Source: a virus | Length of the DNA stretch: 21,825 bases | Virus record (IMG/VR): IMGVR_UViG_3300025616_000288 | Span: 1-21,825 of that record | Direction: 5' to 3' (one strand) | Shown: one piece after another, positions 1 through 17,905 of the stretch | Position numbering within the stretch: position 1 is the stretch's first letter | Layout of the letters: each line of letters begins with the position of its first letter | The notes under the pieces: model-generated | The model's database searches: none | Told to the model about the DNA's origin: nothing | The model's input: the letters and a program-made list of their open reading frames with translations, nothing else | Translations under genes and position numbers: made by a program

Positions 1-140
1 GTGTTAGATGCCGCACCAATTAATGTAAAATCAGTAGTACCTATTGATATAATCTCATACTGGTAAGTAAGAACAAAGTCGCCGGCAGATGTTATAGCTG
101 CTTTAAATATTATATCTTGTCCTGGTGTTAGTCCACTAGT
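1..140 (-). repeat. GTTDFTLIGA motif, copy 3 (cut by the window edge)
   Basis: The last visible residues read TYQYEIISIGTTDFTLIGAA then SN, at which point the window ends. The wording is almost identical to copy 1, so the protein very probably continues with the GLVF.ATG.GTGTGTA half of the motif and further domains. Confidence 0.7.
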
Positions 141-3100
141 AGAATTACATATTACTGAATCGCTGGCAGCTATTGTTCCAGAAACTGTGATTGCTGCTGG
201 GTTACTAATAGAATTGTCAATGCCAACAATGTTGGCCACTGTTAATCCACGCACAACGCTAGTCATTGCGCCGCTAGCGGTAGTAACTTCTAATGGAAGA
301 CCACCTACTTGACTTGAGATAACAAAGTCAGTAGAATTCAATATTTCTGTTATATAATATGTTTGTCCAGCAACTATTCCACCTATTACATTTTCAAATA
401 CAATAGCACTATTAACAATTAAACTACTAGTTGATCCAGAAGCCAATGTCAAATAATTTAATGTTTGGTCATATAAAACTACTGCAGGACTATCTTCATC
501 AAATGTTGCAACAGTTGGGGTATCTTGGTCAAAACTACTTACTAAATGAGTGGTGTTACTAATAGTAATACTTGCAGTGCCTTCACCAGAACCAGTAATA
601 TTATATTGCGTATTAAAATATTGACGCTCAGTTAAGTTATATGTAGTTACTGCAATAGCATCACCATTTGCTGGCGGGCTATTGAATAGAATTGTATTAG
701 TTACGTCACTTATGGTATATGCCGAATAATTTTGTCTAACCCCATTAATTTCTACAATAGCATTAGTTGGATTATCTCCACTAGTATAGTTTGTTAATGT
801 AAATGACGATGCTGCTCCATTACCCGTAAATGTTTGTATTGTTGGTAATGTATATCCATATTGTATCGGTAGTGTTTCACCCATCAACGTATAGGCCAAA
901 TAATCAACTGAATTGTCATAGGATGCTGAAAGTAATATTGATGCAGTAATTCCGTTAGATGCTAATCCAATTGCATAATCATTAGTAATAAACATTGCTC
1001 CGCCGGTGGCGTCAGTTAATTCTACTGTATCTCCACCTTGTGTCTCAGATATAGTAAATTCATTAGGATCATATATTGTTTTTACATAATATACCTGATG
1101 TGGTACAATTACATCACCAAATATAGTATTACTGAATGCAATTGGTTGATTTGGAACCATCGTTCCGGTTGAATTGGTTGTTATAGTATTAATTACTGCT
1201 TTTGTTCTAGTAACTACATTGGTGGTACCAAGTATTAAAGGTGAACCGTTGTAATACATTGCAGGGGGAGTCCATGCTACACCTGATCCAACTTCTATAA
1301 TAGCAGTCATGTAACCAGTGTCATCTGATAATGCAAACGTTTCACCATTAACCGCTAATGATATAGTAATTCTTTTTGTTGAACCACTGATAGATTTTAC
1401 ATAATAAACTTGATCTTCTACAATGTTACCAAAAACAGCGCCACTAAATGTGATAGGACTATTCAATATAAAATTCTTTACACTGTCACATGTAATAGCG
1501 TCTGTGGTTGAATTAGTTGAAACTGCAATAGCTTGTAAGGGTTCAGTAGTTGGTCTAATTAGCCCCGATCCTTGAAAGATGCTTGCTGTATAATTTGCAT
1601 CCACATATATCTCTTGGAATCCTGTTGTTGAATTTATTCTAATTGGATCAGTTTGTGTGTTAGATTTTACTAACTGGTCGCCGTTACCAACTTCATATAT
1701 ATCAATACGTAATGTGTCTGTCCCCGGAGAGATAAAATTCAACGGAGTAGTTAGTGTTACTACTTTGTTAATCCAATCTACAGTATATCCTGAACCATCA
1801 TATATAGTAGTGCTTAACCCAGTAGCATAATCAATTACAAATACACTTATCTGAGTAGGTATAATTGTTGCGTTATCAAAACTATATTCAGTCTGCTCGC
1901 CGGCTGTTGGGGTCAATTCTAAAGAAACTACATTATACCCAACATGTTGGTATATGGTTTCATCCCAATTTGTACCCGGGCGAGTGTTAGTAATCATAGT
2001 AATAGTATCAGTAACTACGCCCGGAACCATTTCTTCTGGACCATAACCAGCAGTGAATGTATCACCTTGAACATCATACACAGATTCTGGTGTTACAAAA
2101 TTAGATGTTGATGTCCAGGTTGTTAAATTACTACTTTGTAATACAGTATTGTTTAACCCAACAATAACATATTCGCCGCTGTCATCGTTATAAACAGTAC
2201 TTTCTAATGTTTTAACAGTGCCTGATGTACGGGCAGTCCAAGTAATACCAAATATATCAGAAGTTAAAATAACTCCATTATCACCTACTGCAACAAACAC
2301 ACTATTAATACTATCCCAAATGATATTATTTAAGTTATCCGTAACACCAGATGCTTGTGCAAACCATGTATTAGTATTTGTACTTGTATAGATGATACCG
2401 TTATCACCAACTGCTGCTATTGTTTGACCGTTACTTGCAATTGAATTAAATCCGTATACAGTAGCAGTAAAGTTTACTTGAGTCCAATTATACCCATCAC
2501 GGCTAGTATATATTAATGCTACATTAACTAAATTAGATCCCGACGTTGTTTGTCCTAGACCAACTGCGACAAATCCAGAATATCCAGTTGTACTTGCATA
2601 GGTAACACCATTGAGTATATTACTTACTGCAACTGGATTGCCGTTAAATGTAGTTGTAGTTGGTAATCTATATGTTTCTTCCCAAACAGACAAATCTAAA
2701 GCAGATGTAATAATGCTATTACCTACCGCAACATAAACTACGTTGAATGCAACACTATTTAATGACAACGGTATTATTGTGCTTGTTAGACCCAATGGGG
2801 TATATGTAGTAATTGTGCTCCAATTAAATCCATCTGAACTTGTCAATACAGGAGTTGCACTATTATTACAGGTTATGACATACTTTGTTCCAGTATACAA
2901 CATATCAGTAATATTGATAGTTGAGTTTGATAACTGTGCAATGGCCCAAGTTTCACTGTCTGAACTTGCATTGATTGAGGAATAATCACTGGTATCTGCT
3001 GCGCTTAGATAAGTTAGCCCATTCCAAACAATAGCCTTTAAATCTAATCCAGTAGCATAGAATGGTCTATCAGTTAGTATAGTATCAAGGGTAAACTCAT

Positions 3101-6100
3101 CCGCCGGGGCAAATGGATTACCTAAGTAAGTTGAGTTAGGATAAGTTATCCCGTTAACTAATTGAGTTAAATCCACACCCGGCATGTTAACCGTCGGTTG
3201 ATAGTATCCTGTTATTCTATCTAACGCATTTAATTTATAACTTCCTGCATCTAATAATTCCCACTTACCAAAAATGAAGTCAGGATCATTGTTGCTGACA
3301 ATACATTGATATAAGCGATTGTTGTATTTTACAATGCTAGAATTAAAGAAGAATGGTTCTGGCAACAATGCATAATCACCTTGCTTAGCCATATTAAAAC
3401 TTAATTCAGTAAGAGTACCACTATAAACCGTGAATGCACTACCGTTTGGCGTTTCACTAATAGTAAGAGCAGGTAGAGTTTTAATATAATATGTTTGTCC
3501 CAATACAATGTTACCTGTTACAGTACCGGTGAATACAACAGGATCATATAAAGCAAATTCACTAACATTATTAACAGTAACAGCAGTACCCGAAAGACCA
3601 GTGACTGTGGTTGATGTTGCTCCCGTGTATGGGAAATTTAATCCACTAACTGCTACGGTTAAATTAGAATTTTCATATAATTCTAATTGATTTTCAGAAT
3701 AGACTTTAACATAGTACTGTTCAGTTATCCCAGCTGGTGTTCCACTCGCAATTGTTGTTGCTATCCCGCCTGTTGAATCTATGGTTAATACTTGTAATGT
3801 TAAATTATTAGTCGGAGTAGTTCCACCTACGCTAAGTCCTGGTATAGTTATAAGATTTGTTACCGCATATCCACTTCCAGCAGTTTTTACTGTAGCTGAG
3901 TATCCACCCAATAAATAACTTACATTAAACGTTGGGGTAGTACCAACTGCTTGAGTTAATGTTACTAGTCCGGTTGCAGCAGATAATGTATCTGCTACTG
4001 TTACGTATGCTTCGCCGGTGCCAATCATTGTTCCGCTGTCAGCGGTAACAGTAAATACACTTCCTCCGGCTGACTCCGATATTGTAAAGTCTGTAGAGTT
4101 GGATATTGTTTTTACATAATATACAATGCCTAATTCTACTCCACCTAGTGAAGTGCCACTAAAGTACAATGGCATGCCTGAATATAATACATTAGTAGCA
4201 GCACATCTAAGTTTATTCCCCGCAAGAGTAGAGGTAACTGTAATTGAAGTTGTGTCCGCGCCGGTGACAGTGTATGGACCGCCGGATGTTGTTAACCCAC
4301 CAATATTAGTACCAACGTTAAATTGCATGTTAGTGTAGATATTAGTAACTCCACCGCTTTGTGTTGTTAAACATACTCGGTTAACTGTAGCTAGTGTTGC
4401 AGTAATATCTCTTTCTATTAGATTAGAAACAGTTCCTGACACCGCAGTTTTTTCGCCGGACGTTTTGTACAATGTAAATTGTTGACCATTAATTTGACCT
4501 GGGCTTACTGGTAGTCCCATATTCAATGTCATTGACCCAGTGCCTGTAGTTAATTTTACTGTGCCAGCTTGACTTGTAACTGTACATGAACCAGTCTGTG
4601 TAGTTAATGTAAACAGATTTCCATTAATTGAAGTAGAGATAGAAAAAGTTGTCCCTGATAATACTTCTCTTACGTAGTAAGTAGTTCCTGCAACTATATT
4701 ACCAAACGTTGCTCCTGTGAATATGATTGGTGTATTAACCAATAATCCATCTGTGCTATCAGATGTAACATATCCTGAGTTATTTGTTGCGGTTACTATT
4801 GCAGTCACTGGAGTATTACTTGTAGACATTGTGAAATGCTCTAAGTCAATAACTGTCGTTACATAATAATTGTCGTTTTCTATGACACCGCCAAAAACAT
4901 TTCCGGTAAAGAATATAGGAAGTCCGGGATAGAATGCATTTGTTCCATCTTCACCAGTGATATTTAACGGGACAGTAATTGCATTAGTAGCAGTGGTAGT
5001 TGCTGTTACTGTTCTAATGCCATCGTAGTTAACTGTCATTATTGCAGTGTTATTCAACTGTCCTACATATAAAGTAAGACCTGCTGTGCCAACAGTTGCA
5101 GTATTCATCACCACGGTATTACCTGGGACAGGGACTCCATTTGTGTCAACTGTTGTACACATAGTAAAGCCAGTATCTTCTAAAAATCTAGCATCAGATG
5201 CTGTGCCCGAACCAGACCCTACCCCAGTTGCAGTAAAAACAACACCCGCTGTATTAGAACTAGCACCTATTGCCACAAAATTAGTATTGCCCACTGAGAC
5301 AATCGTATAAACAATTCCAGTAACAAAAGAACCCGCATTTATTAGTTTAGGCAATTTAACCAATGATTCTACATAATATATTGTAGTAGAGGGAGGAGTA
5401 ACATTATCAGGAGTTGAAGGAACTATTGGACTACCTGAAGGAACACCACTTCCTACAAACTTAACTGGCATTCCAATGTAGAAACCTAATGTTGACCCTA
5501 ATAATAAATCAACAGATGAACCACCTGTACTTGGGTTAATTCTTATTGCATTAGGGTAAGATGTTGCAGGGCCATATGTTTGAATTGTATTTCTAGTACG
5601 TGATGACCAGGTTAGTGTTTGGTTATTTTCTACATCCAATATTGAAAAAATAACACCCTTATTACTAGCTAGCATTGTACTCACTGGGGGAGATGCATTA
5701 GCTTGATCATACGGTAATAAAATAGATGACGATGCAGCATTTATGCTATCATTATATGATCCAGCATAAAATGAACCATAAAATCCAGACGGAACCCAAT
5801 CAATTACTTGAGTAGTATATGATGTTCTATCATAGCGTAATTTTATAGTGTTTTCTCTAGTTGGGGTAGAAGTAGTAATGCAAGATGCGATTGCACTTAC
5901 ATTAAGTTTCTGTATTCCAGATCCTACGCTAGTCAATAGTACTCTATCATGGTCATTTAACAATGTAACATATGTAGTGTACAATGCAATTATAGTTGAT
6001 GGTGACGTTTCTAGCACACCTACATAATATTTTTGTCCAGCAATTAATCCACCAACACCAGTAGAACCTGCAGCCGGATAATATATTACTGTATCACCAG

Positions 6101-9100
6101 TCTGCAATAATGGAGCATCTAAATTAATTGTATTATTAAGTATATCAACACTAGCCCCGTCAAATGTTACTACAAACGCAGGATCAATTTTTATTGTTGG
6201 TAAAACTGCATATCCTTCGCCTGGGTTTATGACAGTAACTCCTATAACAGAATCCAATGCCATAATAGGTTGTAATTGTGCCGCTACTCTTGGTGCAGGA
6301 TATATAGTAGTATCAATGTATGCGGTGACCCTAGGGGGCTCGGTATACCCTCTTCCAGAATCTAATACTATAACCGCAGGCAAGTCAATAAAGATTTGTT
6401 CTCCGGGAATATGTTGTTCTATTGTAGTACTTCTGGCGCCCCTAGCTAATCCCAACAATTGATTAGTAGATAAATCTCTTGAACTATAAGATATGATTTC
6501 ACTACCAATTAGTATTTCTCCTGTTACAGGGAAACCAGAGACATTATCTACATACAATGAATTAGAACTCAATGACATGTATGATGCTAACTTAGTAATA
6601 GGGTAGTTAGTTTCCCCTACTATTTTATTTTCTATTCTGTAACCAATGCTCAATCCGTAATTATTAAACCATTGAGTGTATGGTGCAGTTTGCCAGATTG
6701 GATCAGTGGGCAAGTATTGATTGTCGCCGCTTGGGCTATTATACACTAATTCCGGTGATATAAATTGTTGTAATGAAGAATTATATTCTGATGGTACATC
6801 AAAATCAGTAATGTCTCCTTCAAATACATCAGTACGAGTATACTTAAATAAGAATTCTTTAATCACTACGTGATATGGTTTAACTTCATTCAAGTATCCT
6901 TCTAAGAACAATTGATTGTCCGAACGAAATACTTCTAATGGCAACAATTCTCTAATTGTGTGGGAAACATCCATTAATGACGTTTTGTTTAGCCATGGTA
7001 AGTAATTTTGATTTTCAACTGTTTCACTTTGAATATATTCAAATAATAATATTAAACTTTCATTTCTATAGATTAATAATTCGTTAGTATAAATTTCTTC
7101 ATTCAATGAACGAACTATATTTCTTGTTTCTTCACTTGGATATTCATCGTATGGAGTGGTGTCAAAAAAGTTATTACCAAATCCTAATCTAGCACTTGCA
7201 TAATCCCAAAGATAGCTACTGAACTCTATTGTACCGTTTGTTAATCCAATGCGTGTCCAATTACCATCAACGTTGCGTACATATGTTTCACTATTGCCTG
7301 CACTGTTTGATGCAACGGTTACAATAGTTCCAGCCGGAACAGTTAAAGTAGACAAGTCGGCATAGATAGGAACTTGCAATGATGATTTAGTATTGTCATT
7401 ATAACCAGTAGCCCACCAATTTATATAATTCCAATAATTTTTAGTGTCATATTTTTTACCAGGTAAGAATGTTAATGTTGTTGCAGTGCCTGTGCCTGTT
7501 CCACTACCCGTAGCAACAAATACTAAACCTACTGTATTTGACGCGGCGCCTATTAAAGTAAAATCAGTTGTTCCTAATGTGGTAATTGTATATTCAGTAT
7601 TAATAACAAAATTACCCGCTGCTATAGTAGCATATAGTGTGGGATTTGCTGCATTCAATAATACAGCATTTCTTATTTCAGTTATAGGATACTGTGCTAA
7701 TACTTGGTTAGCAAATTGTAAATAATTCTTTAGCGCCCCAAATCTATTGTAGAAGAAACCTTGTCTTGGGGTTGCTAACACACCAGTTTGAACTAGTTTT
7801 GGCAACAATGGGTTAGGAACAACTGCACCATAATTGTCAACACCGCACATACTGTCTAGCATTCTATTGTATAGTCCGGCTGGTTCTCTTATTCCTACTG
7901 CGCCATGATATTGATATGCTGCGCCGGTGCCTGGAAGACCCGGCAAGAAGTCATCAGCATAATCTGCTCTAATTAAACTATACTGATTATGCACTACGTC
8001 ATCGTTTGTTCCAGTTTGGTATCCAATATGCAATGTTGTATCGTTTGCATTTATATAAGAAGAACAATTATACAAACCAAATACATTTGGTAACAACGGT
8101 GCAAGATAACTGATACCGGTACCCACTGGATTAGCAATATATAATTGTAACGTGCTGTCCGCTAGAGTTTTATCTCTTTTCTCAACTATAACATTAGTAT
8201 TTCTTGCCCAGAAATAATATACAGGCACTACTAACCCCTCAGCATTAATTACGCCATGTACGCTGTAATTGTTACTGTACGGGATACCGGGTCCAGGATA
8301 TTGCCCTGGAGGAACATTACTAGTAACCCAAGTATAAACAGACACATTACTTCCCGGGAACACTCTGCCCCACCATTGGCTATTGTATGTTACATCATTT
8401 TGATGATAATTCATAAAACGAGTGTTGGTGGTGTCAAACCAAATTGTACCTAATTTTTCTGATCCCCAAACTACATTACCTTGAGTATAGCTTGGATCAT
8501 TATATCCAGCTGGATCAACATTGGAAATAACATCTATGTTCTGTTGAACTGCACCTAATAGTTTGCCTTGCCATGGATCAAAATAATCTAAGTTTTCTAA
8601 GGTTTCATTTGTGCTTGCACTATACAATTGCATTGGGCCCAAACTATTAACATCAACAATAGCACTTGTACTTCTATATACTGACCAATCAGGCTCACTA
8701 CTTAAACTTACATATGTTACCACTTGTCCATTAGTGTCGTTAGCCATTTGGGTTGGAGCAAAGTTAGGGGTTCCCACTGTAACACGATTGCTGTTGAAAT
8801 CTAATGCAGTACCATAGTATGGCTGTGAACCATAATCTAAATCATGTGCATTTGTGCTTTGTGCATATACAAATTTGCCAGGTGCAGATAAACTTTCATT
8901 ATATGTAGATAAGTAATCAAACATATATACTGCGCCTGCATTACGGAAAGTATCGACCCATTGTGTTGCGTTGTTGTCAAATACTGTATCATTGTCTAAC
9001 TCATCATCTGTGAAGTCGAACGTAGTAGCAGCAAATCTTGCTCCAACTGGTGCGCTTGCTATAAATGAACCTGAATTAGATTTATCAAATTTTATTGTTG

Positions 9101-12100
9101 TACCAAATTGTGTTCTACCAGTTGGATGTGGGCAAGTTATTACTTGCGTCTCGGTAAAGACAGTTATACCCATCTCTGCAAATGCTACTGTTTCTGTCGC
9201 AGTTAATGATAATTTATTATTTGGGGTGCTTAAATCAACATTGATTAATTTTATAATTAATTTGCCGTCTAAACTAGTTGCACTAATATTAGTAATGTTT
9301 GCTAAATTAATGGTGCTAGCTGCGGAAACTGCATCACCGGCTGGTAGTGTAACGCTATAACCATTTAATAAAATTGTTCTATCTGTAGTTATATTACAAT
9401 CTACAGTTCCAATAATTATGCCATAGCTTTCTCCACCGTTTGTAAATCTGTGTACTGCGCCTTCATAATTCTTACTGTTCAATTCAAACGGTGCACCAAT
9501 TAATATTTCATTTGCAAACTTATTAGTATCTACACTTGTTCCAAATTCAACACCAATTGCTGGAGTTTGGCCATTGTCTAACGTTTGTGCTAATACAAAA
9601 TTCATTCCACTTACATTAATTATGTCACCTGCATTTATTATTGAAGTGGCATAGTTGTAAAGGTATAAAGTAGAATCTATAACAGCATAGTTGCTATTAT
9701 CAATTAGTGTTCCGTTAACAGAAACAAACAACGGCATTGTTTGTACTGTAACTGACATACTGCCTGAACTAGTTACTAAATCAACCGGAGTTAAATCAGT
9801 TAATGTTTTAGCAATTCTAAATGTAGTAGCAGTTGGTTTATCAAATACGTAATATACTGTGTTTGCTTGAATGGCACCAGATGATAATAATGTTCCAGAG
9901 AATACTACAGGATCACCAATATTAAATCCAGAACTACTACCAACCGTGATTCTATCAGTGGATGCTGCTGTCGCAGTTGCTGTTTGTGAATCAGTAGTTG
10001 GGGTCCATGCTAATTGAAACTGTAACGGGATATAAGATTGTCCAGAGTTTTGTGCTTCAAAGTTTTGAACTGTTCTATCAAATACGTAAGTATAACCATA
10101 ATTCTCAGTTGCACTATCATAATTTTGATATGGTGCTCCAACAACTACAGTATCACCATAATAATCAGTAGATATTGAGTAACCAAACTGATCTCCGGCG
10201 GAAGTTAAACTCAATGCATCACCATCAATGATGTATGCCGGCTCATATAAATCAGTAACTGCCGACTTGAAATAAACATGAACACTATCGTTATCAATGT
10301 CAGATATGTACAACCAATTCTTATCACCTGACAATGTAGTAGAACTACCCCAGTTTGTAACTCCTACCGGAGCAGAAATGGTTTGATATAAATCAACACG
10401 GTTAACTAACAATGTAGTAATCAATTGATACACATAAACATTTTTAGCACTAGTTGGCTCTGATATAATAAAGAAATCATCTGTATATGAAATAGTAGAA
10501 CCAAACGATGCGCCATGACTAATGGTTTGATTTAATTCATACGAATCAGTAAAAGTATTATATTTGTATCTGTAAACTTCACCTGCATCAGCATCACCAA
10601 TTAGATAGCCCATATCAGTTGTATATGCTACTGCGCTACCAAATGATTGGCTGTTTGCTCTTAGTATTTCTTTATCATACTGATAGTTTAAACTCTTACG
10701 GAATACTGCCCAGCTACCGTCATTATTTGTATCTACCCAAACTTTAAGTTTGTTAAATTCGTTGTCTAATAATGGCAAGTCACCAATTTCAGGTGCAGTT
10801 GCTACACGTTGGTTTTGCATTCTAAAGCCAATACCCAATCCAGTGATACTAGTTATTTGAGTAGGTAATGCTAGATTGATAATAACATTAAACGGATCTA
10901 CTACTGCTGCCACAAGATAATAATTATTAATATTGATATTAAAATTAACAATAGCAAACAAATCATAACGACTTAGTTTATGTGCCTGGTTAAAAGTTAT
11001 AGTTACCGTGCCATTTAAATTATTTCTAGCAGCAATAACTCCTCCCAAACTAGCCGGAGTAAATACTTTCCATTCTGATAGATAATTTGCTACCCATGTA
11101 TAATCACGTACATAAAATTGATTGATAGGGATAACAGTACCAGTTGAATTTATACCAGATGATAGCCCTGAATAAAAATAACTTGCCATCTTAACATCGT
11201 TAAAATTAACATACCCGGCAGTAGGTAATAAGGTAGATGGTTGAGTAGGTGAAATAGTAGGCAATACTTCAGCATTAGTTATTGGTCTACCGTAATTAGT
11301 AATTTGATATACAGGTACTTCTTGTTGTACACCATAAATAGATGCGCCATTGGTTAGACCAACTATAGTTGGGTTTCCGGTTAGTATACTTTCTTTTAAC
11401 TGAAATTCAACGAAATTATCATTTAGTACGCCACCAAACTCACCTGACTTGATAGCCCAATTTTCGTAAAGATCGTAATCAATTCCGCCTTGGGCCAGTG
11501 TTGCTCCTTTAAATGCACTTGCAGCATTTTTGGTACCTTTTTCTTTAATTAAATTTTGATATACATTAACTTGAGTTATATCGGTAAGATCGGCTAATGC
11601 CATATAATCTCTTGGACGATATCCAATTAAGCCAAAACTTAATAAATCTGCATCATTTTCTAAATTTGCATTATTTACATCATAGTATAATGTACTTTCA
11701 TATGAACGTGTTTGACTATTAGGCAATAAACCTTTTTGTATTTGATTGTAATCGGTTTGTTTCCAATCACGTTCATCAAATATTTCTTTTGCTTGAATAA
11801 TAGTTAATGCTGTCCAATATTTGTTTTTGTATTTTACTATTGAACCCTTAGTATATTTTATTTCTCTTGTCCATTCAGCAATATTATCTTGGTTTAAGAT
11901 AAACCCATACGCATCTAGTGTGCCGTTCCAATCAGCAGTTTTTGTTCCTCGAACATAAATTCTATTTTGACGTAACCCGGTAACTAAGTTATAGATAATA
12001 TCATTAAATAATGTTACATTATCAAATACAATTCCATGCTCGATATTACTGATATTGAATTGTCCGTACGCAATAGTATCACCAACGTTCATTGGAGTAG

Positions 12101-15100
12101 CAGTAAACAACGTCCCATCACGAATTACTGTTAAATCCACTGCTTGAATTGGATATAATTCTTGATTTAAAACAAAATTCAATTGTCTAAATGTTAATGG
12201 TTGTACTATATGGCTATCTTTATCAATAGCAAATGTATTAGCAGCTGGATTTATTGTGGTAATGCTTCCAATTTCCCAACCAGTTTGAGACCAATATAGG
12301 AACTCGGCAACCATTTGAGGCCAATTAACGGGAACACCGTTTTCTATTTGATCAAACTTTACCCCTTGACTTTCTAAATATTTTCCGTAACTAACTAAGA
12401 ATTGTGAAACTTCCTGTATTGAATACAACAAAGTGCCATATGGAACTACTGTAACGTTATCAGAATAATCGTTAGTAACTTTTACAGTTACTCCCTCAAC
12501 TGTGATTGTTTCGGTTTGACCTCCAAATTTTGGAGTTAATATTTTAAAATATGCATTAGTTTGTGAATTGCCAAATACTTTAAAGCATGTTCCTTTTAAA
12601 GGATTGTTATCAATTGCAGCAATTTGTATTACTACTCCACTATAAACAATTCTGTCAAACGGTTGATTATCATATAATAATACACTATAGCTTTCGTCAG
12701 GAATTAATAGTGAACTGTTGTTGCTATTTGCTGAACTTTTTTCGACATAAAATTTCAATAAAGTTTTATCACTAAATCCAGCTAAACGATATACTAAACG
12801 AACATCTAAATTATCTAATAATTTAGTAATATTTGTAGTTGCATCAACTCCAACTTGTTTCTCAAAATCAACAATCCAGTTGATATAGCTAGTTGCAGGA
12901 GTTCCAGATCCATATATTGGAATATCACTAACTACTAAATGACTTCTATTGTTAACTAGATATTGATCGAATTCAAAATTATATTTGTAGTTGTCTACAT
13001 CTACTCCCAAATTATAAAATTCTGCAGGCTTGGTTAATGCTAATATACGCATCAAATCAAATGGCCATGAACTACTTCTACGATAGCTAAATTCTGTTGG
13101 GGCAACATCACCCACTTGCCAATCATTTCTGAAAGTATTATCATCGTAATTACCTACGATAGAATTAATCGGGGAAACTAAATTACCGCGACTATCAACC
13201 GGTAAAACATTTAATAATCCATTACGTACATATTTTGGCAAAACAACTCCGCGGCCAGTAACTGGATCAATAGTTCCCCAATCTTCTCCGGCTGCTAAAT
13301 CTCCCCATAATACTAAGTTATCACTTGTATACGGGGCAGGACCATAACGAGTTACCCACCAGTCTGGCTGATTTGCATAACCTAACATTTCCCATGGCGT
13401 AGCATTTGGGGTACTAGTATCATAATAAAATAGATACAATCCTCTAAAATAACCTTGCTGTATGGGTTTGCCATTTAATCTATTACCACTAAAGGTATAA
13501 TTATAACTGTATTGCCCATTGGCTGAATATAATTGTGTCTTATAATTTACTCTGTTTTCACCAACCCAATTTAAAAATGATTCACTATATATTTCTAAAA
13601 ACTCATCATATGAATATCCAGTATTTCTAAAGAAGCCCGGTAATACTTCATATGCTTGTATAGGAATAACATTGCTAAGTTTTAAATTATTATAAACTCT
13701 TTTTTCATATTCAAGTAATACTTGATCTCTGAAATCTTCTAATTTGCCAGTACCTGGATCATACTCACCATATAACTTATTATATGAACCATCGTGTCCA
13801 ACTATAAAATATGTAGGGATAAAGTAAGCTGTATCTAAAGTTACGCTAGGTATAGTTGCAGGGTACAATCCCAATTTAGTAGGGGTGTTTGGTGCAAAGC
13901 TACCGTATGTTTGATTATATTCATTAATTATGATTTGATCATTGGGTAATAAATCCAACGTAACAGTTAATGAAGGAGCATCTGAACTTACTGTGTAGTC
14001 AACTCCTTTAATTAGTTGTGTTTGTACTCCGTTACGAATCAAATATACTAGTACACCATAATAATTTGATGTTGCATAATTGTAAATTCTACTTAATGGG
14101 TAGATACTAACATCTAATGAATTTGCAAAACTATATGTGTTTGTAATGTATGGTGCTTTTTGTGGTAGCATATCGCTCCAAAAGAAAGCATCACTATCTG
14201 TATGTGCAGCGTTCATTTTATCTAATGCGTCATCTAACATTGTAGATGCAGTAAGATAAACAGTATAATCAGATTTATTAACCGTATCAATTAATAAATT
14301 TTTAAAAGTAATATATTGTCTGCTATTATACAATAATGCATTAAACAGATTATGATTTTGTTTACGTAAGAATGTACCAGGTAATACCAATGAAGCACTA
14401 TTCTGAATAATTCTATTACCCCACGGAACTAGATTACCTAAGTCACGGTAATTATTAGGGCCAAATACTTCACCTGCAGTATCAGGGTTGTTAAAGAAAA
14501 TACTTTGATATTGACCGCGGATATCACCAATGTTAGCAGTAGTAATATTTTGATTTAACGGATTGTTATTTAAATTAATTGGTGTTTGATAATATGCAGT
14601 TTGACTTACTTGATCACTTAATATCAAAACTTGAATAACCGTCGGCGGGGTAGTAATAGTCAATGCGGGAATGTTTATGCTAGTGGTAGTGTCAGTAACA
14701 GTGACCGTATAGTCGGTGCTAGGAATATATGTATTATTAATATAAACTTGAACCAATGGCCAATTTGTTGTAGTACTGTATGTAGCCGGAACGTCACACA
14801 CGAAATCAGTACCTACATCTATAGGGTTCCAATCAAACTCAAAAACTTGATATTGTACACTGGGGGATACCGCAGTTTGCCAACCTAATTGTCTTATTCG
14901 GGTAATTCTATCCGTGTAATTATATACATACCCTGTGTTTACTTTTGTTGTTATTGGTGATATGCCAGAAACATAGGTAAAAGTTTGACTATTTAATGTA
15001 ACATCAAAACTTATATCTCCCACATTATCTACTGAACTATAGCGCAGTGGGAAACCCAACACTGTGTCATTTGGTCCAGTTCCTATGCCATAGGCAAATA

Positions 15101-17876
15101 AAGTTGAACCAATAAACGATGTACCAAGATAATATGCTGGGTTACCAAAACTTATACCATTACTATCAAATACATCAAACTTAGGCGGTTGGTTAACTGT
15201 AGTTTTTTGTTGCCCACGTGCTGTCCAATAAAGACCGTTAAAATAAAGATCCCAATATAGTCCGTCAAAATAAAAATCTTTACCTCTATTAGTATATCCT
15301 CTATACACAGCAGTTTGTTCGTCTGCTAATACAGTGCCGTCGTCGGCTTCAGTAAGTGTAATTACTGGAACTGATGATCCTGATATAGTTGACAAATGAG
15401 AAACATATATTTTATTTCTAACTTCTACATTAGTATCTTTTGCAAAAACTATTCTTGATCCGTCAAACAATGCATAGTTAGACAATGGGGTATCAGCCGA
15501 AACCATAGACGCAATTGAAGTTGCTGCGATAGTTGCATTTGTTTTATCCCATGATACTGTAATTATAGTATCTGAACTTACTGTCGTTATATCTGTGATA
15601 TAAGTTATAGTAGGTAGTAAATTTGTAGAATCAGTTATATACTGACCAACTTCAAACAATCCAGATACATCGTCAGTAGGAATTGTAATTGTTGTACTGT
15701 ATGGATACACACTAGTAGTCATTGACCCGCTAGCGGTTGATAATGAGAGTGTAGATCCTTGTTTTGATGTTGAAATTGTGATAGTAGAATCAACAATACT
15801 AGTAATGTAGTATGTAGTGTTTAGTGTTATTCCACCAAACGTAGTACTAGTAAACTGAATAGTATCATTAACGTGCAATCCAACTGTACTACTCAATGTG
15901 ATTGTATTTACTACAGCAGTGGTTGCTGTTGCGGTTCTAGTAGTTATTGCACCGGTAACTGGTTCGATTACTGCATTATAAGTTGTGTACCCTGCAACAT
16001 CCGGATAGTAATCAGGTTGTCCTGCCACTTGACTAAATGCGTCAGTGGTGCGAGTATCCATAAAGTCAATTGGTGCTTTACCATATGTACCAGAATCAAA
16101 TAATCTTAAGTTTGGATAGAACTCAATGATAGGACGTTTAGCTTTGCTATCTAACGTCGCCAATTGTGTAAATAAATCTGGACTATTATTGTATTCTGCT
16201 GTGGCTTTAATTACATCAATATGAAACCAACGATTGCTTCTTGACCATGCGTTTTTATTAATTGAATTTCTAGCAATAGTAATATAATCTTGTTCCACTG
16301 GAATGTTTAAACTTGAATCATAGTTTCCAACATCATATGGCAAGGTATCATATGGAATGTATGTTCCTTCTGAAAATAAACCCGGCGTAACTAAAGTAGT
16401 TACTGGAATTAATTCAATTGCTGTTCCCACTCCTTCAACATAATATTCTACATTGTTGTAACTTTCTGGATACACATTACCTTGAAACAATACTTTTAAG
16501 CCATTGGTAAACACTACTCCATTTGGTGCAGTATATTGTTTCTTTCCTAAAATTTGTGTTAATATGTTTAACGTATTAGTGACATTACTATCTACAATTT
16601 TTAATATACCAACTTTATTTGGATTAGTGCCGTCTTGATAATATAATCTATCTAGTATAGCACTATTGTACGGGACTAGAGATATAGTACCTATACTATT
16701 TCTATAGAAATTTCTTGCGGCATAATTAACACCAAATGAAGGTGTTATATTTTGATTGTTGGGTATTGGACCAGATGGTGTTAGCTGAATTTGCGGATTA
16801 GCCTCATCCCCTAATAGTGTGATTGTATAAAAATTTTGATTTACTGTGGTGTAATATCCACCTTCAAAGTTATTATCAAATATTGCTGAACCTGGATAAT
16901 CTGTGGTTGAGTTATATGTTACGCCGCCGTCCTGGTCATATAGTGTTTGATCATAGAACTGATTTACATACGCTACTTCATCTGGTTCTCCGGTGTCGTA
17001 AAACATTACAGTTAGTCCGTTTAACGCGGTAATACCATCAATGCCACCAATGGATTTTACAAGCGCACCATTAACTTGACTAAAAGGTAAAGTAGATACT
17101 ACCCCTACACTAGGGCCGTTGGGAAAATTATATTCATTTAAGGCATCTTTACTTGGAACAGTAAAGGTTACTACACCAATTCTAGCACCGTTGTTGTCAA
17201 CTCCATACACATCACGAGTTTGAACATTTCGTTCAGTTGGGCTAAATCCAGTTACACCGGGTTCACCTTGAATCCAAAACTGCGTATCTTGATTTACTGT
17301 AAATGTATATGTACCACCTCTTAGTAATGTTAGTGATGGATTGGCACTTGGATTAGTAAGTGTTTCGGATGTTATTAAATATTCGTTTGCTAAACTTTGA
17401 ACTGCATATGCTGAAGTATTATAGATTACATCAGTAGATACAACTACACGTTCAGGTCCAGATGGTAACCAATAATACTGATTGAAGTTAATAATTTTAT
17501 CTAAATTAGTAAATGAATCCCATGAATAGAATTGACTATTAAACAGTCTATTATTATCATTAGTTAGCCCACCTTCAAGTTTTAATGCATCAACAATACC
17601 AGGGTAACTAATAAAATCAGTAGCAGTAGTATCATTTTCTTTTAAAAAAGCAACACCCGGATCTAATTGATAATCTGTTCTAATTTTGGTAGGTTCTGTT
17701 ACATAATAATCATTGGCATTAACACCATACCCAAATTTACTACCTACATAACCTTCTATCTTTTTAATATTGGGTTGTGCTGTTAATTGATCTAACGTAG
17801 CCTGTAAAAATTGACTATTGGTTGGGGTTTTAAATATTTCGGGAAGAAAATTTAATGTTCTAATTCTTGTTGCCAT
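1..17876 (-). CDS. Giant multidomain phage structural (baseplate/tail-fibre) protein, C terminus beyond window
   Basis: A single open frame runs from the ATG at 17874-17876 to the window edge, at least 5,958 codons (roughly 650 kDa) with no in-frame stop. The start is secure: an in-frame stop lies at 17895-17897 and this is the only ATG after it. The N terminus reads MATRIRTLNFLPEIF. The ribosome site is weak (AAAGA about 9 nt upstream). The gene follows gp6 by 29 bp. The protein is Thr/Asn/Ser/Tyr/Val-rich, Cys-poor and mostly beta-type, with two beta-propellers, two CBM-like motifs, eleven YYV repeats and several conserved blocks listed separately. I recognise the block order from giant structural proteins of T4-like aquatic phages, from memory only. 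Its position matches T4 gene 7, so a wedge-attached peripheral or fibre role is likely. Cell-surface binding is inferred. Exact function and true C terminus are unknown. Confidence 0.93.
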   Translation of the reverse strand, partial: MATRIRTLNFLPEIFKTPTNSQFLQATLDQLTAQPNIKKIEGYVGSKFGYGVNANDYYVTEPTKIRTDYQLDPGVAFLKENDTTATDFISYPGIVDALKLEGGLTNDNNRLFNSQFYSWDSFTNLDKIINFNQYYWLPSGPERVVVSTDVIYNTSAYAVQSLANEYLITSETLTNPSANPSLTLLRGGTYTFTVNQDTQFWIQGEPGVTGFSPTERNVQTRDVYGVDNNGARIGVVTFTVPSKDALNEYNFPNGPSVGVVSTLPFSQVNGALVKSIGGIDGITALNGLTVMFYDTGEPDEVAYVNQFYDQTLYDQDGGVTYNSTTDYPGSAIFDNNFEGGYYTTVNQNFYTITLLGDEANPQIQLTPSGPIPNNQNITPSFGVNYAARNFYRNSIGTISLVPYNSAILDRLYYQDGTNPNKVGILKIVDSNVTNTLNILTQILGKKQYTAPNGVVFTNGLKVLFQGNVYPESYNNVEYYVEGVGTAIELIPVTTLVTPGLFSEGTYIPYDTLPYDVGNYDSSLNIPVEQDYITIARNSINKNAWSRSNRWFHIDVIKATAEYNNSPDLFTQLATLDSKAKRPIIEFYPNLRLFDSGTYGKAPIDFMDTRTTDAFSQVAGQPDYYPDVAGYTTYNAVIEPVTGAITTRTATATTAVVNTITLSSTVGLHVNDTIQFTSTTFGGITLNTTYYITSIVDSTITISTSKQGSTLSLSTASGSMTTSVYPYSTTITIPTDDVSGLFEVGQYITDSTNLLPTITYITDITTVSSDTIITVSWDKTNATIAATSIASMVSADTPLSNYALFDGSRIVFAKDTNVEVRNKIYVSHLSTISGSSVPVITLTEADDGTVLADEQTAVYRGYTNRGKDFYFDGLYWDLYFNGLYWTARGQQKTTVNQPPKFDVFDSNGISFGNPAYYLGTSFIGSTLFAYGIGTGPNDTVLGFPLRYSSVDNVGDISFDVTLNSQTFTYVSGISPITTKVNTGYVYNYTDRITRIRQLGWQTAVSPSVQYQVFEFDWNPIDVGTDFVCDVPATYSTTTNWPLVQVYINNTYIPSTDYTVTVTDTTTSINIPALTITTPPTVIQVLILSDQVSQTAYYQTPINLNNNPLNQNITTANIGDIRGQYQSIFFNNPDTAGEVFGPNNYRDLGNLVPWGNRIIQNSASLVLPGTFLRKQNHNLFNALLYNSRQYITFKNLLIDTVNKSDYTVYLTASTMLDDALDKMNAAHTDSDAFFWSDMLPQKAPYITNTYSFANSLDVSIYPLSRIYNYATSNYYGVLVYLIRNGVQTQLIKGVDYTVSSDAPSLTVTLDLLPNDQIIINEYNQTYGSFAPNTPTKLGLYPATIPSVTLDTAYFIPTYFIVGHDGSYNKLYGEYDPGTGKLEDFRDQVLLEYEKRVYNNLKLSNVIPIQAYEVLPGFFRNTGYSYDEFLEIYSESFLNWVGENRVNYKTQLYSANGQYSYNYTFSGNRLNGKPIQQGYFRGLYLFYYDTSTPNATPWEMLGYANQPDWWVTRYGPAPYTSDNLVLWGDLAAGEDWGTIDPVTGRGVVLPKYVRNGLLNVLPVDSRGNLVSPINSIVGNYDDNTFRNDWQVGDVAPTEFSYRRSSSWPFDLMRILALTKPAEFYNLGVDVDNYKYNFEFDQYLVNNRSHLVVSDIPIYGSGTPATSYINWIVDFEKQVGVDATTNITKLLDNLDVRLVYRLAGFSDKTLLKFYVEKSSANSNNSSLLIPDESYSVLLYDNQPFDRIVYSGVVIQIAAIDNNPLKGTCFKVFGNSQTNAYFKILTPKFGGQTETITVEGVTVKVTNDYSDNVTVVPYGTLLYSIQEVSQFLVSYGKYLESQGVKFDQIENGVPVNWPQMVAEFLYWSQTGWEIGSITTINPAANTFAIDKDSHIVQPLTFRQLNFVLNQELYPIQAVDLTVIRDGTLFTATPMNVGDTIAYGQFNISNIEHGIVFDNVTLFNDIIYNLVTGLRQNRIYVRGTKTADWNGTLDAYGFILNQDNIAEWTREIKYTKGSIVKYKNKYWTALTIIQAKEIFDERDWKQTDYNQIQKGLLPNSQTRSYESTLYYDVNNANLENDADLLSFGLIGYRPRDYMALADLTDITQVNVYQNLIKEKGTKNAASAFKGATLAQGGIDYDLYENWAIKSGEFGGVLNDNFVEFQLKESILTGNPTIVGLTNGASIYGVQQEVPVYQITNYGRPITNAEVLPTISPTQPSTLLPTAGYVNFNDVKMASYFYSGLSSGINSTGTVIPINQFYVRDYTWVANYLSEWKVFTPASLGGVIAARNNLNGTVTITFNQAHKLSRYDLFAIVNFNININNYYLVAAVVDPFNVIINLALPTQITSITGLGIGFRMQNQRVATAPEIGDLPLLDNEFNKLKVWVDTNNDGSWAVFRKSLNYQYDKEILRANSQSFGSAVAYTTDMGYLIGDADAGEVYRYKYNTFTDSYELNQTISHGASFGSTISYTDDFFIISEPTSAKNVYVYQLITTLLVNRVDLYQTISAPVGVTNWGSSTTLSGDKNWLYISDIDNDSVHVYFKSAVTDLYEPAYIIDGDALSLTSAGDQFGYSISTDYYGDTVVVGAPYQNYDSATENYGYTYVFDRTVQNFEAQNSGQSYIPLQFQLAWTPTTDSQTATATAASTDRITVGSSSGFNIGDPVVFSGTLLSSGAIQANTVYYVFDKPTATTFRIAKTLTDLTPVDLVTSSGSMSVTVQTMPLFVSVNGTLIDNSNYAVIDSTLYLYNYATSIINAGDIINVSGMNFVLAQTLDNGQTPAIGVEFGTSVDTNKFANEILIGAPFELNSKNYEGAVHRFTNGGESYGIIIGTVDCNITTDRTILLNGYSVTLPAGDAVSAASTINLANITNISATSLDGKLIIKLINVDLSTPNNKLSLTATETVAFAEMGITVFTETQVITCPHPTGRTQFGTTIKFDKSNSGSFIASAPVGARFAATTFDFTDDELDNDTVFDNNATQWVDTFRNAGAVYMFDYLSTYNESLSAPGKFVYAQSTNAHDLDYGSQPYYGTALDFNSNRVTVGTPNFAPTQMANDTNGQVVTYVSLSSEPDWSVYRSTSAIVDVNSLGPMQLYSASTNETLENLDYFDPWQGKLLGAVQQNIDVISNVDPAGYNDPSYTQGNVVWGSEKLGTIWFDTTNTRFMNYHQNDVTYNSQWWGRVFPGSNVSVYTWVTSNVPPGQYPGPGIPYSNNYSVHGVINAEGLVVPVYYFWARNTNVIVEKRDKTLADSTLQLYIANPVGTGISYLAPLLPNVFGLYNCSSYINANDTTLHIGYQTGTNDDVVHNQYSLIRADYADDFLPGLPGTGAAYQYHGAVGIREPAGLYNRMLDSMCGVDNYGAVVPNPLLPKLVQTGVLATPRQGFFYNRFGALKNYLQFANQVLAQYPITEIRNAVLLNAANPTLYATIAAGNFVINTEYTITTLGTTDFTLIGAASNTVGLVFVATGSGTGTGTATTLTFLPGKKYDTKNYWNYINWWATGYNDNTKSSLQVPIYADLSTLTVPAGTIVTVASNSAGNSETYVRNVDGNWTRIGLTNGTIEFSSYLWDYASARLGFGNNFFDTTPYDEYPSEETRNIVRSLNEEIYTNELLIYRNESLILLFEYIQSETVENQNYLPWLNKTSLMDVSHTIRELLPLEVFRSDNQLFLEGYLNEVKPYHVVIKEFLFKYTRTDVFEGDITDFDVPSEYNSSLQQFISPELVYNSPSGDNQYLPTDPIWQTAPYTQWFNNYGLSIGYRIENKIVGETNYPITKLASYMSLSSNSLYVDNVSGFPVTGEILIGSEIISYSSRDLSTNQLLGLARGARSTTIEQHIPGEQIFIDLPAVIVLDSGRGYTEPPRVTAYIDTTIYPAPRVAAQLQPIMALDSVIGVTVINPGEGYAVLPTIKIDPAFVVTFDGASVDILNNTINLDAPLLQTGDTVIYYPAAGSTGVGGLIAGQKYYVGVLETSPSTIIALYTTYVTLLNDHDRVLLTSVGSGIQKLNVSAIASCITTSTPTRENTIKLRYDRTSYTTQVIDWVPSGFYGSFYAGSYNDSINAASSSILLPYDQANASPPVSTMLASNKGVIFSILDVENNQTLTWSSRTRNTIQTYGPATSYPNAIRINPSTGGSSVDLLLGSTLGFYIGMPVKFVGSGVPSGSPIVPSTPDNVTPPSTTIYYVESLVKLPKLINAGSFVTGIVYTIVSVGNTNFVAIGASSNTAGVVFTATGVGSGSGTASDARFLEDTGFTMCTTVDTNGVPVPGNTVVMNTATVGTAGLTLYVGQLNNTAIMTVNYDGIRTVTATTTATNAITVPLNITGEDGTNAFYPGLPIFFTGNVFGGVIENDNYYVTTVIDLEHFTMSTSNTPVTAIVTATNNSGYVTSDSTDGLLVNTPIIFTGATFGNIVAGTTYYVREVLSGTTFSISTSINGNLFTLTTQTGSCTVTSQAGTVKLTTGTGSMTLNMGLPVSPGQINGQQFTLYKTSGEKTAVSGTVSNLIERDITATLATVNRVCLTTQSGGVTNIYTNMQFNVGTNIGGLTTSGGPYTVTGADTTSITVTSTLAGNKLRCAATNVLYSGMPLYFSGTSLGGVELGIVYYVKTISNSTDFTISESAGGSVFTVTADSGTMIGTGEAYVTVADTLSAATGLVTLTQAVGTTPTFNVSYLLGGYSATVKTAGSGYAVTNLITIPGLSVGGTTPTNNLTLQVLTIDSTGGIATTIASGTPAGITEQYYVKVYSENQLELYENSNLTVAVSGLNFPYTGATSTTVTGLSGTAVTVNNVSEFALYDPVVFTGTVTGNIVLGQTYYIKTLPALTISETPNGSAFTVYSGTLTELSFNMAKQGDYALLPEPFFFNSSIVKYNNRLYQCIVSNNDPDFIFGKWELLDAGSYKLNALDRITGYYQPTVNMPGVDLTQLVNGITYPNSTYLGNPFAPADEFTLDTILTDRPFYATGLDLKAIVWNGLTYLSAADTSDYSSINASSDSETWAIAQLSNSTINITDMLYTGTKYVITCNNSATPVLTSSDGFNWSTITTYTPLGLTSTIIPLSLNSVAFNVVYVAVGNSIITSALDLSVWEETYRLPTTTTFNGNPVAVSNILNGVTYASTTGYSGFVAVGLGQTTSGSNLVNVALIYTSRDGYNWTQVNFTATVYGFNSIASNGQTIAAVGDNGIIYTSTNTNTWFAQASGVTDNLNNIIWDSINSVFVAVGDNGVILTSDIFGITWTARTSGTVKTLESTVYNDDSGEYVIVGLNNTVLQSSNLTTWTSTSNFVTPESVYDVQGDTFTAGYGPEEMVPGVVTDTITMITNTRPGTNWDETIYQHVGYNVVSLELTPTAGEQTEYSFDNATIIPTQISVFVIDYATGLSTTIYDGSGYTVDWINKVVTLTTPLNFISPGTDTLRIDIYEVGNGDQLVKSNTQTDPIRINSTTGFQEIYVDANYTASIFQGSGLIRPTTEPLQAIAVSTNSTTDAITCDSVKNFILNSPITFSGAVFGNIVEDQVYYVKSISGSTKRITISLAVNGETFALSDDTGYMTAIIEVGSGVAWTPPAMYYNGSPLILGTTNVVTRTKAVINTITTNSTGTMVPNQPIAFSNTIFGDVIVPHQVYYVKTIYDPNEFTISETQGGDTVELTDATGGAMFITNDYAIGLASNGITASILLSASYDNSVDYLAYTLMGETLPIQYGYTLPTIQTFTGNGAASSFTLTNYTSGDNPTNAIVEINGVRQNYSAYTISDVTNTILFNSPPANGDAIAVTTYNLTERQYFNTQYNITGSGEGTASITISNTTHLVSSFDQDTPTVATFDEDSPAVVLYDQTLNYLTLASGSTSSLIVNSAIVFENVIGGIVAGQTYYITEILNSTDFVISSQVGGLPLEVTTASGAMTSVVRGLTVANIVGIDNSISNPAAITVSGTIAASDSVICNSTSGLTPGQDIIFKAAITSAGDFVLTYQYEIISIGTTDFTLIGAASN
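264..1525 (-). repeat. YYV-type beta repeat cluster, units 9-11
   Basis: Three units: about 1308-1525 (ITFSGAVFGNIVEDQVYYVK), 995-1215 (IAFSNTIFGDVIVPHQVYYV) and 264-470 (VFENVIGGIVAGQTYYIT). Between the second and third lies a different beta segment with NGVRQNYSAYTISDVTNTI. The array continues the pattern of the 3.4-6.1 kb cluster after the Asp-box propeller. Confidence 0.75.
2100..3075 (-). other. Asp-box/BNR-like seven-repeat beta-propeller
   Basis: Residues about 4934-5259. Seven repeats end in a conserved Trp, with Trp codons at 2946, 2820, 2682, 2484, 2364, 2238 and 2115, spaced 42, 46, 66, 40, 42 and 41 residues. The repeat is V-A-V-G-x-N-G-x-I-x-T-S-x-D-G-x-x-W; the best Asp boxes are SSDGFNW and SRDGYNW, others are worn (SSDSETW, TSTNTNTW, SDIFGITW, SSNLTTW). 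Seven blades of about 42 residues is the pattern of sialidase-type BNR and Ycf48-like propellers. None of the sialidase catalytic residues (Arg triad, Asp, Tyr/Glu pair) can be placed, so a binding or structural role is more likely than an enzyme. Confidence 0.8.
3249..3345 (-). other. CBM5/12-like (chitin-binding-type) motif 2
   Basis: Residues about 4844-4876. FFFNSSIVKYNNRLYQCIVS followed by a loop and FIFGKWELLD repeats the pattern of the first CBM-like motif (S-I-V-K-Y-x-N-x-x-Y/W, then F...W). It sits immediately before the Asp-box propeller. The sugar, if any, is unknown. Confidence 0.5.
3420..6130 (-). repeat. YYV-type beta repeat cluster, units 3-7 and 8
   Basis: Six units with YYV/YYI cores: about 5940-6130 (degenerate, GGLIAGQKYYVGVL), 5341-5525 (interrupted by a Pro/Ser-rich loop, TIYYVESL), 4801-5010 (FFTGNVFGGVIENDNYYV), 4563-4800 (IIFTGATFGNIVAGTTYYV), 4026-4230 (YFSGTSLGGVELGIVYYV) and 3420-3600 (VVFTGTVTGNIVLGQTYYI). 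The shared layout is a leading strand, P-I/V-x-F-x-G, G-x-I-x-x-G-x-x-YYV, T-x-F-T-I-S, then a Gly pair and a closing T-x-x-G-S/T-M. Codon-level identity between units is low, so these are old duplications. Confidence 0.75.
5185..5345 (-). repeat. GTTDFTLIGA motif, copy 2
   Basis: Residues about 4177-4230: INAGSFVTGIVYTIVSVGNT, then NFVAIGASSNTAGVVFTATG and GSGSGTA. It is the most diverged copy (NTNFVAIGASSNT in place of TTDFTLIGAASNT). It sits between YYV repeat units. Confidence 0.65.
6195..6460 (-). repeat. GLARGAR motif followed by two GxGYxxxP repeats
   Basis: Residues about 3806-3894. The segment begins LLGLARGARSTTIEQHIPGE and continues with two related strands, VIVLDSGRGYTEPPRVTAYI and VTVINPGEGYAVLPTIKID. 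The LxRGARxT...H phrase and the V-x-x-G-x-G-Y-x-x-x-P phrase are both common in phage fibre and baseplate-associated proteins. A third, poorer copy (VKTAGSGYAVTNLITIPG) lies at about 3855-3895. Confidence 0.55.
6790..7190 (-). other. Helical conserved block with KTSLMDV and EVKPYH motifs
   Basis: Residues about 3562-3695. The run includes ETRNIVRSLNEEIYTNELLI, ESLILLFEYIQSE, WLNKTSLMDVSHTIREL, FRSDNQLFLEGYLNEVKPYH, IKEFLFKY and ends TDFDVPSEY. It is rich in Glu, Leu, Arg and Lys with few Gly or Thr, so it is mostly alpha-helical, in contrast to the beta-rich sequence on either side. I recall a similar block in other giant phage structural proteins. It may be an oligomerisation or docking segment. 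Confidence 0.5.
7475..7635 (-). repeat. GTTDFTLIGA motif, copy 1
   Basis: Residues about 3414-3467: an NTEYTITTLGTTDFTLIGAA stretch followed by SNTVGLVFVATGSGTGTGTA. This compact beta motif occurs three times in the visible protein and I recall it from other phage fibre-like proteins. Role unknown, perhaps a linker between larger domains. Confidence 0.7.
7700..8650 (-). other. Conserved core of the giant protein following the propeller
   Basis: Residues about 3075-3392. In order: LDYFDPWQGKLLGAVQQNID, DPAGYNDPSY, LGTIWFDTTNTRFMNYHQND, WWGRVFPGSNVSVYTWV, YYFWARN, HNQYSLIRADYADDFLPG, then LYNRMLDSMCGVDNYGAVVP and GVLATPRQGFFYNRFGALKN. The order and the Trp/Pro/Gly anchors match blocks I remember from giant structural proteins of marine T4-like phages, where they directly follow an FG-GAP region. 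No enzymatic motif is visible; one of the rare Cys residues is here (SMCGVD). Confidence 0.5.
9110..9470 (-). other. Insert between propeller blades 5 and 6, flagellin-IN-like
   Basis: Residues about 2802-2922. The stretch GYSVTLPAGDAVSAAS followed by TINLANITNISATSLDGKLI and a later AFAEMGI resembles the 'IN......V.A....dGkL.I' pattern of flagellin/hook-associated IN domains. The resemblance is by eye and short; it could simply be a generic beta-alpha-beta insert. Confidence 0.4.
9756..9990 (-). repeat. YYV-type beta repeat, unit 2, inserted in the FG-GAP propeller
   Basis: Residues about 2630-2707. It reads DRITVGSSSGFNIGDPVVFS, then GAIQANTVYYVF, TTFRIAKTL and closes with VTSSGSM. It lies between blades 4 and 5, followed by a short beta segment (VSVNGTLIDNSNY, then GDIINVSG) before blade 5 begins. 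Confidence 0.75.
11760..11880 (-). other. CBM5/12-like (chitin-binding-type) motif 1
   Basis: Residues about 2000-2038. The spacing of W-T-R-E-I-x-Y-x-K-G-S-I-V-K-Y-K-N-K-Y-W, then a loop and F-D-E-R-D-W, matches the 'W...Y..Gd.V.Y.gk.Y.a.....F....W' signature of small aromatic-rich carbohydrate-binding modules. Ligand binding is inferred from the motif only; many phage tail proteins use this fold without a proven sugar. Confidence 0.5.
13000..13960 (-). other. Conserved core of the giant protein with GHDGS, PWEMLGY and SWPFDLMR motifs
   Basis: Residues about 1306-1625. In order: a Pro-rich lead (APNTPTKLGLYPA), VGHDGSYNKLYGEYDP, the acidic helix RDQVLLEYEKRVYNNLK, PGFFRN, YYDTSTPNATPWEMLGY, PDWWVTRYGPAPYTSDNLVL, an LPKYVRNGLLNVLPVDSRG stretch, then WQVGDVAP and RRSSSWPFDLMRILALTKPA. 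The density of Trp, Pro and charged residues is unlike the surrounding Thr/Asn-rich sequence and suggests a globular domain kept under selection. It matches blocks I remember from relatives; no catalytic site is evident. Confidence 0.55.
14950..15300 (-). other. Conserved block of the giant protein with NQPPKFDVFD motif
   Basis: Residues about 859-975. The features are a Trp/Tyr-rich hairpin (FYFDGLYWDLYFNGLYW), then RGQQKTTVNQPPKFDVFD, and a later GDISFDVTLNSQTFTY. I recall similar wording in other giant phage structural proteins. The fold is unknown, beta-rich by appearance. Confidence 0.45.
15720..15944 (-). repeat. YYV-type beta repeat, unit 1 (isolated)
   Basis: Residues about 645-719 of the giant protein. 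It shows the full pattern: an ITLSST strand, then FTSTTFGGITLNTTYYITSI, then TISTSKQG and closing LSTASGSM. It is the most N-terminal copy and lies almost 6 kb from the next. Confidence 0.75.
17100..17876 (-). other. N-terminal conserved block of the giant protein
   Basis: Residues 1 to about 258. The first 30 residues look like a capped attachment segment (MATRIRTLNFLPEIF, then FLQATLDQL). They are followed by IEGYVGSKFGYG, a W-D-S-F...NFNQYYWLPSGP stretch, and a beta-sandwich-like segment with LLRGGTYTFTVNQD, FWIQGEPGV, GVDNNGARIG and VTFTVP. I recognise this order from other giant phage structural proteins. Because this end is conserved while the rest varies in modules, it is the best candidate for the part that docks to the baseplate; that is inference. 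Confidence 0.6.
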
Positions 17877-17905
17877 TTTTGAAAATCTTTGTGGTTATAT
17901 ATTAC

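Follow-up and report, generated by a model that had tools for sequence, protein, structure and literature searches.

How does a single viral reading frame stay open for 5,958 codons, and what would so long a chain do beside the baseplate genes of a phage? The window analysed here, which is the whole of IMG/VR record IMGVR_UViG_3300025616_000288 (21,825 bp), carries such a frame on its minus strand. It starts with ATG at position 17876 and runs stop-free to position 3, where it is still open at the record edge, as had been predicted from the letters of the DNA. At 34.8% GC, so long a run without a stop would arise by chance with a probability of about 10^-192. The visible chain amounts to 648.6 kDa, just under the figure of more than 650 kDa in the original prediction, whose description of a structural-type gene holds. 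The features of the window are collected in Table 1.

Table 1. Features of the 21,825-bp window, in order of translation within the giant gene
Feature	Residues	Position	Strand	Remarks
gp25-like baseplate wedge protein, 149 aa		21330..21779	-	PF04965 GPW_gp25, E 2e-7, above cut-off
gp6-like baseplate wedge protein, 1,123 aa		17906..21277	-	phrog_10646, E 8e-258
Giant virion structural gene (gp7 slot)		3..17876	-	5,958 codons, 3' end missing; PHROG 10938
Conserved N-terminal domain	1-160	17397..17876	-	common to PA5oct, Atu_ph07, SCTP-2, RaK2
Module A copy 1	650-720	15717..15929	-	
Core 1	~857-2175	11352..15308	-	HMM; collinear with PA5oct/RaK2/Atu_ph07/SCTP-2 proteins
CBM5/12-like fold	1997-2043	11748..11888	-	model; lies in core
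KGT-motif segment	2075-2160	11397..11654	-	possible gp7-like element
Small beta-barrel (predicted)	2271-2356	10809..11066	-	like domain of phage endosialidases and E1 enzymes
FG-GAP repeat	2559-2599	10080..10202	-	PF14312, E 2e-8, above cut-off
Module A copy 2	2634-2707	9756..9977	-	
Core 2	~3057-3740	6657..8708	-	HMM and BLASTP; KPYH motif at end
Module B copy	3420-3465	7482..7619	-	
Module A copies	4119-4173, 4291-4371, 4362-4432	4581..5522	-	
Module B copy	4181-4226	5199..5336	-	
Module A copies	4550-4617, 4757-4821	3414..4229	-	
Beta-propeller, Asp-box-type repeats	4943-5253	2118..3050	-	predicted fold, pLDDT mostly 80-95
Module A copies	5453-5524, 5556-5625, 5805-5872, 5901-5952	21..1520	-	
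Module B, truncated	5931-5957	6..86	-	contig ends here

A scan of viral contigs returned 386 stretches that encode relatives of the giant protein. A stop closes the homologous frame in 19 longer records (5,965-6,886 aa, median 6,465) and in two more, G044 (7,756 aa) and the 348.7-kb record G026 (5,996 aa); in all, at least 21 metagenomic phage records besides the window have closed giants with conserved neighbours, at 5,965-7,756 aa. A search of 22 records, G044 and G026 included, gave giant frames of 5,428-7,757 aa; closure is established for those two, and the others count here by frame length. The nearest full-length relative is a 6,597-aa protein in a 263.7-kb record (G001), and residues 1-5951 of the window protein align to its residues 1-5823. 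From this alignment we infer that about 770 aa are missing from the window and that the complete protein would have close to 6,700 aa.

The frame is under strong selection, as had been proposed. Specifically, dN/dS between the window and G001 is 0.12 and ranges over 0.06-0.15 in six pairs (this one and five others); in each block of 500 codons, pS far exceeds pN. Because purifying selection extends along the whole length and relatives are closed by stops, a chance frame is excluded and a chimera is very unlikely; the same relatives make a frameshift very unlikely. That two or more genes were joined in assembly could be suspected because the record is one metagenomic contig whose end falls within a repeat-type module, and because a relative record, G009, looks chimeric downstream. 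Against this stand the same gene order around a stop-closed gene in at least 21 records, the matching open frames in 22 records, the low dN/dS over the full length, and the 45-68% DNA identity of the module B copies, which should not collapse. For this window we consider such a joining scarcely credible, and for the family it is already refuted. A repeat-driven assembly break was likewise rejected, the module B copies being too diverged in DNA to account for a collapse. These data confirm that the giant is a real, single, selected gene and not an assembly artefact. In G009 (73000-83499), a 565-aa ORF that exceeds its counterparts in length follows soon after the giant and precedes bacterial-looking ORFs (by eye, rubrerythrin-like and phosphate-binding-like); that record may be chimeric.

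The giant comes after gp25-like and gp6-like genes and thus holds the position of gp7, in agreement with the original prediction. The gp6-like protein is ~34% identical to the baseplate wedge protein of Serratia phage BF, CBB and GAP32, and the gp6 proteins of these records are nearest to those of RaK2, CBB, PA5oct and Atu_ph07. In G001, the giant is preceded by SbcC, late sigma factor, virion structural proteins, hub/lysozyme, gp25 and gp6, in that order, and is followed on the 3' side by a 206-aa protein (phrog_11259) and then by a protein of 416 aa that carries an autoproteolytic cleavage domain, Peptidase_G2 (at 1621-2871 of G001 locus 72000-91999, two genes past the giant). The records belong to T4-type jumbo phages; a T4-type gp23 is present in all six large ones tested (E ~1e-99). 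Both gp23 and jumbo size come from the relatives, and the window itself shows gp25, gp6 and the giant. A T4-type gp7 profile has no match in the six large records. Signs of a cyanobacterial host were sought as a psbA-type gene, which is absent from the same six records. No relative was confirmed in cellular genome contigs, which therefore give no clue to the host.

Further downstream in the G001 locus (~4169-19525), there are a radical SAM protein (PF04055), a nucleotidyltransferase/APH fusion, a shikimate dehydrogenase-like domain, an FG-GAP protein and several related 'CFSGxPRTW' ORFs that lack Pfam matches. Similar ORFs follow the giant in other relatives too, and the block recalls the host-recognition cluster of pelagimyophages (PMC7029224). 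The 349-kb G026 record has two further very large ORFs, of 2,753 aa (120023-128284) and 4,990 aa (134833-149805).

The weak ribosome site to which the original prediction drew attention is present, but most relatives have a site of the same AAAGA/AGAGA type before the gene, and in G026 a clear Shine-Dalgarno tetramer accompanies only 35% of the ORFs, compared with a 6% background. Weak sites are therefore frequent in the lineage, and this one looks normal for it and not like a defect.

The N-terminal part and the core of the protein belong to a known family. The PHROG 10938 profile matches successive pieces of the giant (E 1e-56, 7e-124, 1e-13 and 3e-51) from residue 8 to about residue 3,400; its PHROG label is 'head and packaging', though the position of the gene is that of a baseplate gene. 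A profile HMM built from the 19 complete giants recovers the same block order in the PA5oct-type, Atu_ph07, SCTP-2, RaK2 and CBB proteins, with collinear blocks at model positions 1-160, ~520-625, ~800-2,160 and ~3,010-3,600. The N-terminal domain has 14 invariant columns among 24 sequences, and core 1 aligns with the PA5oct type at 27% over 1,460 columns (BLASTP, E 2e-109). Just downstream of core 2 there is a weak link to phrog_708, a baseplate wedge subunit (E 1e-8). The extension closes with a conserved end that is weakly similar to the PA5oct-type and Atu_ph07 ends, with E-values that come from a very small database. Within the core, at 15225-15278, a 27-bp unit is duplicated in frame (two copies, 85% matches).

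The remainder of the chain is modular. Module A, a 72-aa repeat, occurs in 11 copies in the window and in 8-16 per protein in relatives, while module B, a 47-aa repeat, occurs in 3 and in 0-8, respectively; longer proteins have a higher module content (Spearman 0.82). The FG-GAP stretch is without counterpart in the shorter cultured relatives. For residues 4281-5260, structure modelling predicts, with good confidence, a propeller fold that superimposes on a propeller enzyme (VIA Z 28.8 over 271 residues), with YCF48 among its Foldseek matches. The model of residues 1701-2450 is confident only in parts, and its matches are small common beta folds. Among these, the predicted CBM5/12-like fold resembles a baseplate/receptor-binding chain of Agrobacterium phage Milano, 8fqc_P1 (VIA Z 7.5, 45 residues, rmsd 1.2), and the predicted beta-barrel resembles the phi92 endosialidase (Z 9.1 over 80 residues) and UBA6 (Z 9.8). 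A search of solved structures (PDB) by sequence, with three family profiles and gp6, gave nothing meaningful. A tape measure protein was considered and rejected: a long, mainly helical chain would be expected, whereas beta structure dominates in the two stretches modelled (1,730 aa) and the gene follows gp6.

We favour, with a probability of roughly 0.72, a single very long baseplate-wedge protein that occupies the gp7 slot of a T4-type, RaK2-like jumbo phage and serves as a scaffold with modular surface domains. The wedge role is the best reading because of the slot, the conserved core and the detection of CBB_236, the homologue beside gp6 in CBB, in virions by mass spectrometry (PMC5259590), where its table values of 21 and 7.72 are read as peptides and % coverage. 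The N-terminal and core regions, which are common to homologues of 3,300-4,450 aa, would probably dock on gp6 and help to build each wedge. Clade-specific inserts and a C-terminal extension would add a chain of small repeats, the FG-GAP region, the beta-propeller and the conserved tail segment. The propeller, the sugar-binding-like domain and the variable repeats point to an outward-facing extension. It probably occupies the outer side of the baseplate, where it would act as a scaffold and touch the host surface, possibly binding sugars, and its length would grow and shrink by gain and loss of modules.

The same modules, together with the unexplained tail whiskers that CBB bears (PMC5259590), could be taken to indicate that the protein is mainly a tail fibre or whisker and not a wedge component. 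We consider this improbable, given the position and the conserved core after gp6 and the fact that G026 encodes its other very large ORFs separately. Equally improbable, in our judgement, is a structural polyprotein, one chain cut into several mature proteins; the extreme length, the multi-domain build and the Peptidase_G2 protein encoded downstream would suit it, but a Pfam domain search found no protease or intein domain in the giant itself.

Does a wedge protein in the gp7 slot descend from gp7? T4 gp7 is present in six copies in the baseplate. If the giant were present in six copies as well, it would add more than 4 MDa to the baseplate. Profile comparison of the giant with six T4-type gp7 proteins, whole and by region, was not significant (hhalign E 0.2-0.8). 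In the KGT segment, Q402, Y406, K413 and G414 of A5 are invariant in 55 aligned sequences, and the Y...KGT motif resembles, by eye, FYSTKGI of T4 gp7 and FYQSKGS of cyanophages. This segment is modelled at low confidence (pLDDT ~50 or below), and there is no gp7 chain among the structure matches listed for residues 1701-2450, which cover other parts than the motif. Because the profiles are not significant and the motif is recognized by eye, we claim the gp7 slot for the giant and not gp7 descent.

An unrelated protein may have filled the slot, as proposed for VrlC in a pelagimyophage study in which gp7 is absent and apparently replaced (PMC7029224). This would fit the lack of significant profile similarity to T4 gp7 and the cyanophage giants, which show only short shared modules. 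The shared slot, the conserved Y...KGT motif with its resemblance to T4 gp7 and cyanophage elements, and the match of the 4,225-aa ACG-2014f protein to T4 gp7 (hhalign E 7e-7) speak against it, and on balance we regard it as rather unlikely.

The size class itself is already known, since proteins of equal size occupy the gp7 slot in cultured marine cyanophages. In S-SSM4 a 6,932-aa protein follows gp25 and gp6 and precedes the downstream wedge genes (locus 10788-31586), and in ACG-2014d a 6,817-aa protein lies between gp6 and gp9 (locus 3301-23754); both are labelled only structural protein. S-SSM7 has two 'gp7' genes of ~3,000 aa. The PHROG 701 profile has 6,136 positions and is matched by S-SSM4 at E 0. 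Placing the giant among the largest viral proteins is justified where phages are concerned, but its size is not exceptional: many relatives match or exceed it (up to 7,756 aa), and the S-SSM4 and ACG-2014d proteins are equally large. Our search of the literature on the largest phage protein found little, and the papers searched contain little discussion of giant proteins in cultured phages.

Almost no collinear similarity to the cyanophage giants was found where they were compared, the best local matches being 66-102 aa at 30-38% (S-SSM4, S-CAM3), and a full PHROG scan of the giant for PHROG 701, 2885 and 4406 gave short weak matches only. Because only short modules are shared, gigantism may have two origins. 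We tentatively suggest, as a conjecture at somewhat less than even odds, that the gp7 slot grew gigantic independently in cyanophages and in the RaK2-like clade, and that small modules, gained and lost, set the length. If so, the 7,756-aa relative would rank among the largest single chains from any phage, and the baseplate would be far heavier than T4 gp7 would predict. What subunits of 700 kDa would gain for a phage if length grew twice in this slot then becomes a question; it could be a wider search of the host surface, a skirt that binds sugars, or a sturdier trigger. Widespread uncultured T4-type jumbo phages spend 18-23 kb on this one baseplate-region gene, and the giant ties them to the cultured models CBB, PA5oct and S-SSM4, in which its role can be tested.

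Compared with known systems, the giant most resembles the RaK2-type proteins (RaK2 3,326 aa, CBB_236 3,340 aa, PA5oct type 3,857 aa, Atu_ph07 4,449 aa), with which it shares the slot after gp25 and gp6, a collinear N-terminal region and two core blocks. The gene order late sigma-hub-gp25-gp6-giant is shared with RaK2, and its hub-gp25-gp6-giant part with CBB. In contrast to these proteins, the close relatives of the window protein measure 5,965-7,756 aa: they have inserts, and a long modular extension separates their core from the tail end. The virion evidence comes from CBB_236, a distant homologue that lacks the extension. T4 gp7 (1,032 aa) also follows gp6 directly and has a KG motif by eye, and the giant, at its expected full length, is ~6.5 times as long; the size ratio of ~6-6.5 supports the roughly sixfold difference given in the original prediction. 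VrlC-type proteins of pelagi- and cyanomyophages, which are reported to replace gp7 in the baseplate (PMC7029224), are likened to the giant by description and not by sequence. Finally, the cyanophage gp7-slot giants (PHROG 701, 2885 and 4406; S-SSM4 6,932, ACG-2014d 6,817, ACG-2014f 4,225 and S-CAM3 3,045 aa) lie, like those of the window clade, after gp25-gp6, and they precede gp8 or gp9. They are of equal size in two cases and have the KG motif in S-SSM4, ACG-2014f and S-CAM3, but they share only short modules with the window protein (S-SSM4, S-CAM3, ACG-2014f) and belong to phages of marine cyanobacterial hosts.
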